Below are positions 50,705-56,714 of a stretch of 64,000 nucleotides of DNA, in pieces; positions within the stretch are counted from its first letter, which is position 1, and the number at the start of each line of letters is the position of its first letter. This DNA is from Cyclobacteriaceae bacterium (GTDB lineage: Bacteria > Bacteroidota > Bacteroidia > Cytophagales > Cyclobacteriaceae). Location: assembly GCA_020436085.1 (NCBI GenBank), contig JAGQYM010000009.1:57697-121696 (forward strand). The letters are read 5' to 3'. Under the pieces are notes generated by a model. It did not search any database. It worked only from the letters and a program-made list of their open reading frames with translations, and had not been told where the DNA came from. Position numbers and translations under genes: made by a program.

Positions 50705-50746
50705 ACCGCAAAGACGCGAACGAGCGAAGAGAATACTTAGCGTCTT
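50705..50746. repeat. Partial long inverted repeat (family R2)
   Basis: ACCGCAAAGACGCG, GCGAAGAGAAT and CTTAGCGTCTT match the left and middle part of the R2 inverted repeat described at 56656. The right end is cut off where array A begins. Confidence 0.75.
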
Positions 50747-50756
50747 CTGGGTCTGT

Positions 50757-51058
50757 GATGCTGAGAGAAACGCCTGCATGCCGGAGGCAGGAAGCATCTC
50801 CTCAATACAAACACTCAACTTATTACTAAAACTCATCCTCGAACAAAGGAGACACTTCGATTCCTCAGTGTCTCATTATTAGCTCTGTGATGCTGAGCAG
50901 AGCGCCTGCATGCCGGAGGCAGGAGGCATCTCCTATCTCGAAACATGAGTCAAGTTGCAAAACGAGTCCTACCCTAAAACTGAGTTAAGACTAAGGAGAC
51001 ACTTCGGTTCCTCTGTGTCTCAGGTAACGAGTCTGCGATGCTGAGTACAACGAAGCAT
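50757..51058. repeat. Hairpin repeat array A
   Basis: Alternating forward (f, GATGCT stem) and reverse (r, GACACT stem) copies of one hairpin element: f 50757-50801, r 50848-50874, f 50889-50933, r 50995-51021, f 51037-51058 (truncated). The first and second f copies carry a 19-bp palindromic insert in the loop. The region from about 50793 to 51023 is nearly identical to array B at an exact offset of 1826 bp. Confidence 0.85.
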
Positions 51059-51068
51059 AACGGTTCAA

Positions 51069-51128
51069 ACCGTGAAGACGCAGGGGCGCAAAGAAAATCC
51101 CCTTAGCGTCTTAGCGCCTTAGCGGTGA
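51069..51128. repeat. Long inverted repeat (family R2)
   Basis: An ACCGTGAAGACGC left arm, then GGGGCGCAAAGAAAA, are matched by CTTAGCGTCTTAGCGCC and TTAGCGGT on the right. It closes array A and is followed at 51142 by another truncated f hairpin (GATGCTGAGAGAAACGCCTG). Confidence 0.8.
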
Positions 51129-52569: not shown

Positions 52570-52584
52570 CAAAAACCTGTCTGT

Positions 52585-52883
52585 GAAGCTGAGAGACGCC
52601 TGCCTGCCGGAGGCTGGAAGCATCTCCTCAATACAAACACTCAACTTATTACTAAAACTCATCCTCGAACAAATGAGACACTTCGATTCCTCAGTGTCTC
52701 ATTATTAGCTCTGTGATGCTGAGCAAAGCGCCTGCCTGCCGGAGGCAGGAGGCATCTCCTATCTCGAAACATGAGTCAAGTTGCAAAACGAGTCCTACCC
52801 TAAAACTGAGTTAAGATTAAGGAGACACTTCGGTTCCTCAGTGTCTCAGTCATAGCTCTGGGTGCTGAGTACAACAGAGCATA
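52585..52883. repeat. Hairpin repeat array B
   Basis: Copies are f 52585-52627, r 52674-52700, f 52715-52759, r 52821-52847 and a degenerate f at 52861-52883. The first two f copies carry the same 19-bp insert as in array A. From about 52619 to 52849 it matches array A without indels and with about five substitutions. Confidence 0.85.
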
Positions 52884-52891
52884 AGGGCTCA

Positions 52892-52950
52892 ACCGCAAAG
52901 GCGCGGAGGCGCAAAGAAAACAACCTTAGCGTCTTGGCGCCTTAGCGGTG
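52892..52950. repeat. Long inverted repeat (family R2)
   Basis: ACCGCAAAGGCGCGG and AGGCGCAAAGAAAAC form the left side; CTTAGCGTCTTGGCGCC and TTAGCGGT form the right. It closes array B, 14 bp before the stop of the convergent FtsX permease. Confidence 0.8.
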
Positions 52951-55436: not shown

Positions 55437-55472
55437 CCAACGCAGAGACGTCTTTGGCCTTGGCGGTGTCTC
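55437..55472. repeat. Degenerate R2 repeat, left edge of the GIY-YIG composite
   Basis: CAACGCAGAGACG followed by GTCTTTGGCCTTGGCGGTG matches the two ends of the R2 repeat with the middle missing. It sits just before array C. Confidence 0.6.
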
Positions 55473-55487
55473 TGTTTTCTGGCCTGT

Positions 55488-55827
55488 GATGCTGAGTGCA
55501 ACGAAGCATCTCCTTGGTAACAAACCCAATAGCGGAGGAAGAACAGCGCTTTAACATAGGAGACACTTCGATTCCTCAGTGTCTCAGGTTACGAGTCTGG
55601 GATGCTGAGCAGAGCGAAGCATCTCCAATCTCGAAACATGAGCCAAGTAGCAAAACGACTCTTAGTCTAAACCGAGTTAACCTCAAGGAGACACTTCGAT
55701 TCCTCAGTGTCTCAGGTCACTACTCTGGGATGCTGAGTGAAACGAAGCATCTCCTCAAGGCAAACACCACCTTGGTACTACACCTCACCTTAGAACAAAG
55801 GAGACTCTTCGGCTCCTCAGTATCTCC
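55488..55827. repeat. Hairpin repeat array C
   Basis: Copies are f 55488-55513, r 55559-55585, f 55601-55626, r 55687-55713, f 55729-55754 and a divergent r 55800-55827. None has the 19-bp insert seen in A and B. The r-to-r spacing of 128 bp between the first two equals the 147 bp of arrays A and B minus 19. It ends 58 bp before the ATG of the GIY-YIG gene. Confidence 0.85.
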
Positions 55828-55884
55828 GTCAGGTTGACAAAGAGCCGCAATAACAAGTATCTTGGATTGAAAAATCCTCTGTTG

Positions 55885-56229
55885 ATGCGGGACCATTCCT
55901 ACTACGTATACATTACGACCAACCCCGACAGAAAAGTCCTTTACACTGGTATGACAAACGATATTACACAGAGGATAACTGAGCATTACCTGAATCGTGG
56001 CAAGCTGAAAACTTTTGCTGGCAGGTACTACTGTTACCAATTAATCTACTTTGAAGAGTTTCAGTGGGTTCAAGATGCTCAAGCCAGGGAAAAACAAATC
56101 AAAGGATGGACTCGAAAGAAAAAGCTCGATCTTATCAAACAAAACAATCCAAACCTCAATTTTCTCAATTCGTCAATTATGGACAACTGGCCTCCGAAGG
56201 ATGGCTCAATCAGGGAGCCAATAGATTGA
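55885..56229 (+). CDS. Small GIY-YIG nuclease inside the repeat arrays
   Basis: The 114-residue protein from ATG 55885 is a stand-alone GIY-YIG domain (UPF0213/YhbQ-like). Motifs are Y7-V-Y9, Y20-T-G22-M-T-N, Arg30 and His34 in ITQRITEH, and the metal Glu69 in REKQIKGWTRKKK. All catalytic positions appear intact. It would nick or cut DNA or RNA hairpins. A TTG at 55834 could give 17 further residues. It is tightly enclosed by hairpin repeats (58 bp before, 18 bp after), and the composite is edged by R2 repeats, so a role in mobilising these repeats is a reasonable guess. Confidence 0.85.
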   Translation: MRDHSYYVYITTNPDRKVLYTGMTNDITQRITEHYLNRGKLKTFAGRYYCYQLIYFEEFQWVQDAQAREKQIKGWTRKKKLDLIKQNNPNLNFLNSSIMDNWPPKDGSIREPID

Positions 56230-56246
56230 GCCTATTTCCAAACAAA

Positions 56247-56645
56247 GGAGACACTTCGATTCCTCAGTGTCTCATGCTCGCTCTGGGATGCTGAGAGAAA
56301 CGAAGCATCTCCTCACGACCAACACCCTCCTGATACTAAATCTCAATCCTCAAACAAAGGAGACACCTCGGTTCATCAGTGTCTCAGTCCTGGCTCTGGG
56401 ATGCTGAGTGAAACGAAGTATCTCCTCTATGCAAACACCCTCTTTAGTACTAAACTCACCTTCGAACAAAGGAGACACTTCGATTCATCAGTGTCTCATG
56501 CTCGCTCTGGGATGCTGAGAGAAACGAAGCATCTCCTCACGACCAACACCCTCTTTAGTACTAAACTCACCTTCGAACAAAGGAGACACTTCGATTCATC
56601 AGTGTCTCAGGTTACGAGTCCGTAATGCTGGGAAAAACAAAGCAC
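56247..56645. repeat. Hairpin repeat array D, 112-bp tandem units
   Basis: Copies are r 56247-56273, f 56287-56312, r 56359-56385, f 56400-56425, r 56471-56497, f 56511-56536, r 56582-56608 and a decayed f at about 56621-56645. The r copies recur every 112, 112 and 111 bp. The linkers between f and r are also conserved (CAACACCCTC, TACTAAA, CTCA, AACAAA). Confidence 0.88.
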
Positions 56646-56655
56646 AAGGGCTCAC

Positions 56656-56714
56656 ACCGCAAAGACGCGGAAACGCAAAAGAGAATCAACTTAGCGTCTT
56701 TGCGCCTTAGCGGT
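56656..56714. repeat. Long inverted repeat (family R2), right edge of the GIY-YIG composite
   Basis: The left side ACCGCAAAGACGCGG and AAACGCAAAAG is complementary, imperfectly, to the right side CTTAGCGTCTTTGCGCC and TTAGCGGT. It lies 18 bp beyond the stop of the convergent gene at 56733 and could also act as a bulky 3' structure. Confidence 0.8.

Follow-up and report, generated by a model that had tools for sequence, protein, structure and literature searches.

According to the 2013 survey by Di Nocera and colleagues, CGTC-tagged palindromes, many of them with TGTC instead, have stems that begin with AT, occur mostly as HH dimers with heterodimers in some families, and are found in five phyla including Bacteroidetes, with dRS3 of Neisseria as a member (PMC3733652). 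The survey gives the super-family stems of 8-9 bp and loops of 4-5 bases, names no associated enzyme, describes the repeats as apparently without a dedicated transposase and with no tyrosine transposase flanked by copies, and does not settle what enzyme works on CGTC repeats (PMC3733652). In the REP/RAYT system, the tag is GTAG and the enzyme is an HUH tyrosine enzyme (PMC3733652).

In the window, as we call the whole 64,000-nucleotide stretch of Cyclobacteriaceae DNA analysed here, a small GIY-YIG nuclease gene lies amid arrays of short hairpins. Site-specific single-stranded nucleases (Ssn) belong to the GIY-YIG superfamily, and their repeat in Neisseria is NTS. The Ssn paper, by Chenal and co-authors up to Veyrier in Nature Communications in 2025, is said to have found that the Neisseria GIY-YIG enzyme cuts its repeat in single-stranded DNA. 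The term HH dimer presumably denotes an inverted pair, which is also the arrangement found here.

Thirteen hairpins, 11 of the exact pattern and two altered, alternate in orientation on both sides of the gene (Table 1), in the plus-strand order B A B A B A, gene, A B A B A B A, followed by a decayed B. The B hairpin lies around GATGCTGAGTGAAACGAAGCATC on the plus strand and has a 6 bp stem, GA facing GA, 2 bp and a 3-base loop, and the A hairpin, around GACACTGAGGAATCGAAGTGTC on the minus strand, has an 8 bp stem and a 10-base loop. The A that each B faces lies 44-66 bases beyond it, so that the unit is an inverted pair. A preliminary description of this DNA had reported alternating arrays 58 bp and 18 bp from the gene; the arrays and the first distance stand, and the second is now 17 bp. 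Twenty mononucleotide shuffles of the window contained no such hairpin with a stem of at least 5 bp. No transposase was seen in the array, as had been stated earlier, the other frames of at least 60 residues being small and overlapping the repeats.

Table 1. Positions in the window of the nuclease gene, the hairpin arrays and clusters, and the R2 repeat
Feature	Position	Strand	Remarks
GIY-YIG nuclease gene	55885..56229	+	114 aa, single domain; ATG at 55885, stop at 56229
Left array	55475..55826		three inverted B-A pairs
Left array, B copies	55488-55510, 55601-55623, 55729-55751	+
Left array, A copies	55562-55583, 55690-55711, 55800-55826	-	last copy altered
Right array	56247..56645		A-B-A-B-A-B-A and decayed B
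Right array, A copies	56250-56271, 56359-56385, 56474-56495, 56585-56606	-	second copy altered
Right array, B copies	56287-56309, 56400-56422, 56511-56533	+
Altered hairpin copies	55800-55826, 56359-56385
Cluster of A/B units	52580..52870		exact A at 52677-52698, 52824-52845
Cluster of A/B units	50755..51060		exact A at 50851-50872
R2	56657..56713		inverted repeat unrelated to the hairpins; right array edge
Further R2 arms	50706-50728, 51103-51125, 52893-52915, 52926-52948

Two further clusters of these units, absent from the earlier account, lie upstream in the window, and units are also present on contigs C2, C18, C33, C55 and C104 of the source genome, a 4.4 Mb draft in 191 contigs. In each of the two clusters, two B loops (52595-52625 and 52730-52755; 50770-50800 and 50900-50930) are lengthened by a palindrome like CCTGCCTGCCGGAGGCAGG or CCTGCATGCCGGAGGCAGG, as if one repeat had entered another. 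Exact-pattern copies number 25 in the source genome, with 14 on the contig of the window; its 57 relatives hold 0, 1 or 2 copies each, and the window hairpin is private to its genome among the 58 searched. Elsewhere in the source genome there is one Y1-transposase-like frame, with no window-type hairpin in the 3.2 kb around it. R2 (CCGCAAAGACGC ... TTAGCGTCTTTGCGCCTTAGCGG) is also found next to the hairpin clusters, and its pattern matches six times in the window against 0.02 expected. It had been placed at both edges of the arrays; the right-hand copy is confirmed, whereas at the left edge a pattern search found nothing within 3 mismatches and reading revealed a decayed arm with a one-base deletion near 55447-55467.

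The gene itself is as first described, a GIY-YIG frame with intact motif residues. It matches Pfam GIY-YIG (PF01541) at E 7.2e-17 on a 131-codon reading, and Y6, Y17, G19, R27, H31, E66 and N85, which we take to be the motif residues, are invariant in an alignment of 26 homologues. The protein has both the domain and the conserved Tyr, Arg, Glu and Asn that characterize the GIY-YIG superfamily. AlphaFold2 predicts a compact single domain (mean pLDDT 92.1), with no further folded domain in the model. The closest solved fold is the UPF0213 protein 1zg2, with Slx1 weaker, and the closest solved sequences are those of the UPF0213 proteins 1zg2 and 1ywl; we know of no repeat association for UPF0213 GIY-YIG proteins or Slx1. 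An NCBIfam scan of the protein returned nothing at E 0.01. Two other identities were considered and not adopted: a phage origin, for which there were two weak phage records and a PHROGs match at E 0.0044, and a defence gene, for which there was a match to part of UzuA (E 0.0026) that we judged to be due to chance. A MacB/FtsX permease gene lies on one side of the nuclease gene, and on the other a 140-residue frame that matches nothing in Pfam.

Homologues of the window gene at E 1e-10 are present in 38 of 96 genomes, its own included. A first motif scan covered 32 other GIY-YIG loci, 29 from the genome search and three paralogues of the source genome, and found the array of the window at none of them; a related hairpin lies near the closest relative of the window gene (L008), where it departs from TGTC by reading, and a doubtful one near L026. 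This absence seemed to speak against the idea, but the flanks are full of other hairpins. In these flanks, 12-mer repeats exceed shuffles at 31 of 33 loci (L008 and L018 have none), and other paired hairpins were found at most of the eleven loci whose flanks were read. The excess at two loci of the source genome, L003 and L004, may be due to tRNA genes. These two are further small GIY-YIG frames without a hairpin array, at G000:C116:4928-8134 near a tRNA-Arg and at G000:C180:46156-49368 near two tRNA-Leu. The paralogue L002 (G000:C139:25587-25874) lies amid different, longer, CGTC-tagged hairpins.

A profile of the 26 homologues retrieved at least 587 candidate stretches, at least 529 of them encoding a relative, and the best 80 of these at least 529 relatives served as the set of homologous loci; going by their record labels, they come from Bacteroidota, Chloroflexi, several candidate phyla, Nitrospina, Myxococcales, Desulfobulbaceae and others. 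A C/TGTC-tagged hairpin with an AT-first stem lies within 600 bp of the gene at 60 of the 80 loci, and two or more at 51. The tag is TGTC at 56 loci and CGTC at 8, while CTGT, GACA, TCTG, GTCT, TTGC, AGTC and GTAG occur at 0-5 loci each. Over all DNA, coding included, 204 such hairpins were counted within 600 bp and 56 beyond 2 kb, a 20-fold difference in density. Of the 79 loci with controls, 53 have more 12-mer repeats in the 1.2 kb surrounding the gene than in any control window from that locus. Tagged hairpins accompany the gene at loci of candidate phyla (L083, L098, L100, L106) and of Chloroflexi (L096, L097, L103, L116); at 20 of the 80 loci there is none, and two of these (L037 and L038) have untagged hairpins. 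With 60 of 80 loci tagged, the gene is not found mostly at repeat-free sites, the pattern that the preliminary description had named as telling against it. The hairpins could instead be transcription terminators or RNA stabilisers beside which the gene is a bystander, as their intergenic position and capacity to fold would allow, but this is very improbable, since the window array holds 0 terminator-like sites against 1.4 expected and no Rfam family, and such a concentration around one kind of gene would go unexplained.

Control loci indicate what the hairpins accompany. Among 30 GIY-YIG loci, mostly UvrC-sized, from 20 repeat-rich genomes without a profile match, two have one tagged hairpin each, and one of these two (L117) is a small stand-alone gene whose hairpin has the shared GA/GNA form described below. 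Thirty of the Y1-transposase matches listed, with about 93 kb of DNA in all, contain 14 GA...GA hairpins, which does not exceed the rate far from the nuclease gene; one of the 14 (L205) has the shared form. A RAYT enzyme as the spreader is thus unsupported. The association is specific to such small GIY-YIG genes and widespread, and in our view the link between gene and hairpins is beyond doubt.

In a plasmid collection, 33 records carry a homologue, and at 8 of the 13 loci read it lies amid tagged hairpins. These include Rhizobium sp. CIAT894, Shinella, Azospirillum lipoferum, N. gonorrhoeae, a record labelled Aeromonas, and Photobacterium; in Spirosoma and Planktothrix, the tagged hairpins have 5 bp stems and were found by a looser scan. 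The N. gonorrhoeae homologue has 13 tagged hairpins within 700 bp. The other five (Sinorhizobium sp. C101, S. meliloti, Novosphingobium, Rhizobium tumorigenes and Sphingobium) showed no tagged hairpins outside the gene, the sole loose match in Sphingobium sitting inside it. Loci with the gene beside hairpins are thus known from Bacteroidota, Chloroflexota, Cyanobacteria, Pseudomonadota and candidate phyla (Patescibacteria), and the homologues of Rhizobium, Shinella, Azospirillum and N. gonorrhoeae take the system beyond the Bacteroidota, to which it had been assigned at first. Chance or an assembly artefact, which a draft of 191 contigs might invite, is scarcely credible when the same arrangement is seen in named isolates and finished plasmid-collection records.

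The hairpins of many loci share one form, a tag and stem topped by GA facing GA and then by one or two further pairs and a GNA loop. Within 600 bp of the gene there are 172 GA...GA hairpins with a stem of at least 5 bp, 99 of them with a Watson-Crick-closed GNA loop and 15 with GNNA, compared with 8 and 4 among 96 beyond 2 kb. Per kb of non-coding DNA, GNA/GNNA hairpins number 2.21 within 600 bp and 0.09 beyond 2 kb. We analysed the form on 64 distinct GNA/GNNA hairpins from 35 loci, chosen for that loop from 176, of which 114 meet the loop rule. The four bases 5' of the stem are T in 60, G in 59, T in 58 and C in 59 of the 64, and the outer stem pairs are A-T in 59 and T-A in 58. The middle pair varies (T-A 31, C-G 17, G-C 12, A-T 3, G-T 1), as does the pair adjoining GA, both in the long form (G-C 16, A-T 15, C-G 1) and in the short form (C-G 18, G-C 12, A-T 1). 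Since the scans required stem pairing, and selection the closing pairs, compensating changes are partly by construction, and a structure is supported only by how varied the letters are and by the proportion of hairpins that meet the loop rule.

The GA/GNA core is present on one strand only. In DNA, a GNA loop makes a hairpin unusually stable; with the energy model used, folding energies showed no difference between the strands. The window B hairpin has the core GT-GAA-AC, and the Planktothrix hairpin also has a GA/GNA core. Window copies are tagged TGNG, where N is A, T, G or C, and not TGTC or CGTC. Across 37 loci, the loop class follows the protein tree weakly, with 9 changes compared with 12.6 in shuffles.

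The natural reading of this association is that the enzyme acts on the hairpins, and by analogy the window enzyme is probably a hairpin-directed single-strand nuclease. On balance, we favour the view that the gene encodes such a hairpin-directed nuclease, which belongs with the surrounding repeats and acts as follows. The repeats are inverted pairs of short hairpins, each of which seems built to fold within a single DNA strand: behind a short 5' tag come the stem, a tandem GA step, one or two pairs and a GNA loop, and then the mirror image. The enzyme most likely binds the tag and hairpin where DNA is single-stranded, as at a replication fork, during DNA uptake or in repair, and would then nick beside the hairpin. 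Repair and recombination at nicked hairpins would then add and remove units, and may also seed new sites. We infer hairpin binding, single-strand cutting and the nick as the cause of array growth; that the enzyme spreads repeats to new sites is the part of which we are least sure.

Gain and loss of unit material is directly visible when orthologous loci of two genomes, G056 and G050, are compared: inserted unit material of about 110 bp separates one pair and of about 156 bp another, while a further locus has several units in one genome and two in the other. A DNA search for an empty site of one G050 unit led to a G056 counterpart almost equal in length over the unit. There was no sign of target duplication at 57 paired units, and an empty-site search with the neighbour gene, which is present in only 4 of 58 genomes, gave no site to compare. 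The earlier proposal that a GIY-YIG nuclease recognises and spreads the hairpins thus fares well as to association, but not as to spreading, for which there is no sign of target duplication and only local gain and loss of units.

The repeats are also dispersed. In the stretches of G069 that were read, nine dispersed units consist of a plus hairpin, 36-44 bases and a minus hairpin, and at L260 6188-6956 (G069:C11) a plus and a minus hairpin, of the kind that elsewhere make up the usual dispersed unit of G069, enclose a GIY-YIG gene that has an in-frame stop. G097, a single contig, holds 221 dispersed hairpins, mostly paired, with neither a small GIY-YIG nuclease nor a Y1 enzyme detected. On that contig (G097:C1, for example L261 and L262), some hairpins lie inside another hairpin pair. 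An orientation scan of 109 loci found hairpins at 56, on both sides of the gene at 32; the closest hairpins of these 32 run plus-gene-minus at 12, plus-plus at 7, minus-minus at 7 and minus-plus at 6, so that the first order is a tendency only.

Copy number was compared with the gene in 392 Bacteroidota genomes by a gene profile search and counts of TCATNCYGAN{5,8}GARGNATC, a pattern that covers some stem types only and thus gives a lower bound, the window's own hairpin scoring 0. The 156 genomes with the gene at E 1e-25 or better have a median of 3 copies and a mean of 14.2; the 160 with no match at E 1e-8 have a median of 0 and a mean of 7.1, and the 76 with weaker matches a mean of 2.5. The gene is associated with two or more copies (odds ratio 5.7, p 5e-13); with the looser gene threshold and a cut of 10 copies, significance is lost (p 0.12). 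Within-family permutation over the 392 genomes gave p 2e-4 for the gene at E 1e-25 and 0.003 at E 1e-8, so that copy number tracks the gene within families; 26 of the 160 gene-less genomes, however, have at least 10 copies. The preliminary description had regarded repeats equally abundant without the gene as evidence against it, and these 26 genomes, among them G097 with its 221 hairpins, bear this out in part. In the 20 of the 26 that were examined, GIY-YIG frames are mostly UvrC-sized. Part of the gene-less set may reflect gene loss or genes missed at contig breaks.

These observations bear on two other explanations. In full REPIN-like transposition, GIY-YIG would replace RAYT, with paired hairpins as the non-autonomous form and the gene within a pair as the autonomous one. 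The dispersed single units of G069 and G097, the gene between a hairpin pair in the G069 unit and at L275, L276 and L282, the plus-gene-minus order at 12 of 32 two-sided loci and the tracking of copy number with the gene within families all speak for this explanation. However, that order is just the commonest of four, the 57 units show no sign of target duplication, some repeat-rich genomes have no gene, and to our knowledge a hydrolytic nuclease has no way to join ends; we consider such transposition possible but doubtful.

Somewhat less likely still is that the nuclease is a selfish homing-type gene, for which repeat-rich DNA between genes is a safe harbour and the hairpins are landing sites that something else spreads. 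Single-domain GIY-YIG enzymes are typical homing nucleases, repeats abound in some gene-less genomes, and neighbourhoods differ within a genus. The window gene and the G025 copy have the same neighbours but lie on opposite sides of the 140-residue frame, and none of these neighbours occurs in the stretches around the copies of G012, G050, G056, G048 and G053. Against the homing-type gene stand the privacy of the window hairpin to its genome, the different hairpins of the source genome's two paralogues, which are not accounted for by a gene riding in repeats already in place, and the rarity of such hairpins at the control GIY-YIG and Y1 loci. A nuclease directed at its own surrounding hairpins remains our preferred reading.

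A widespread class of bacterial repeats lacks a partner enzyme, and the small GIY-YIG enzyme is a strong candidate for that role. The evidence ties one kind of small enzyme to the CGTC class across phyla and supplies precise test hairpins. If this is right, repeats in many bacterial genomes would be shaped by a nuclease and not by a transposase, and each genome would hold a matched pair of enzyme and target, perhaps useful for cutting single-stranded DNA. A bolder idea, which we hold tentatively and think more apt to prove wrong than right, is that the enzyme is dedicated to mobilising the entire C/TGTC-tagged super-family, which would make a second, chemically distinct REPIN-type system with the gene in a hairpin pair as its autonomous form. 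If true, a hydrolytic GIY-YIG nuclease would stand in place of an HUH tyrosine enzyme and use strand-specific DNA hairpins.

The preliminary description knew of no described system of this kind; the enzyme family (Ssn) has reportedly been described, and the repeat class is in print (PMC3733652). Our literature search found no paper on GIY-YIG genes amid such repeats; this is no evidence of novelty, because the search did not cover the Ssn paper. What may be new is the link with the CGTC/TGTC super-family, together with the GA/GNA hairpin.

Compared with the super-family as the survey presents it, the homologous loci agree in the C/TGTC tag carried by 60 of 80, and differ in having short stems with GA/GNA cores and in the GIY-YIG gene that lies amid their repeats. 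Window copies have neither the CGTC/TGTC tag nor, in A or B, an 8-9 bp stem with a 4-5 base loop, a combination present in the Rhizobium, Shinella, Neisseria and Azospirillum copies; they do form inverted dimers without a flanked tyrosine transposase. Like REP/REPIN elements with RAYT, the system has inverted hairpin pairs, a four-base 5' tag and one enzyme gene among them. Unlike those elements, it has neither a RAYT gene among the repeats nor a GTAG tag; its enzyme is a GIY-YIG nuclease, and Y1 loci hardly ever have these hairpins.

The N. gonorrhoeae homologue, which we take to be Ssn, is 37% identical to the window protein over 81 residues. The window system differs from Ssn in its Bacteroidota host, its hairpin sequence, its TGNG tag and its inverted-pair arrays around the gene. 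In both, a small single-domain GIY-YIG gene lies among its repeats, and the window locus agrees with the definition of Ssn in being a small GIY-YIG gene homologous to the Neisseria one amid its cognate repeat.
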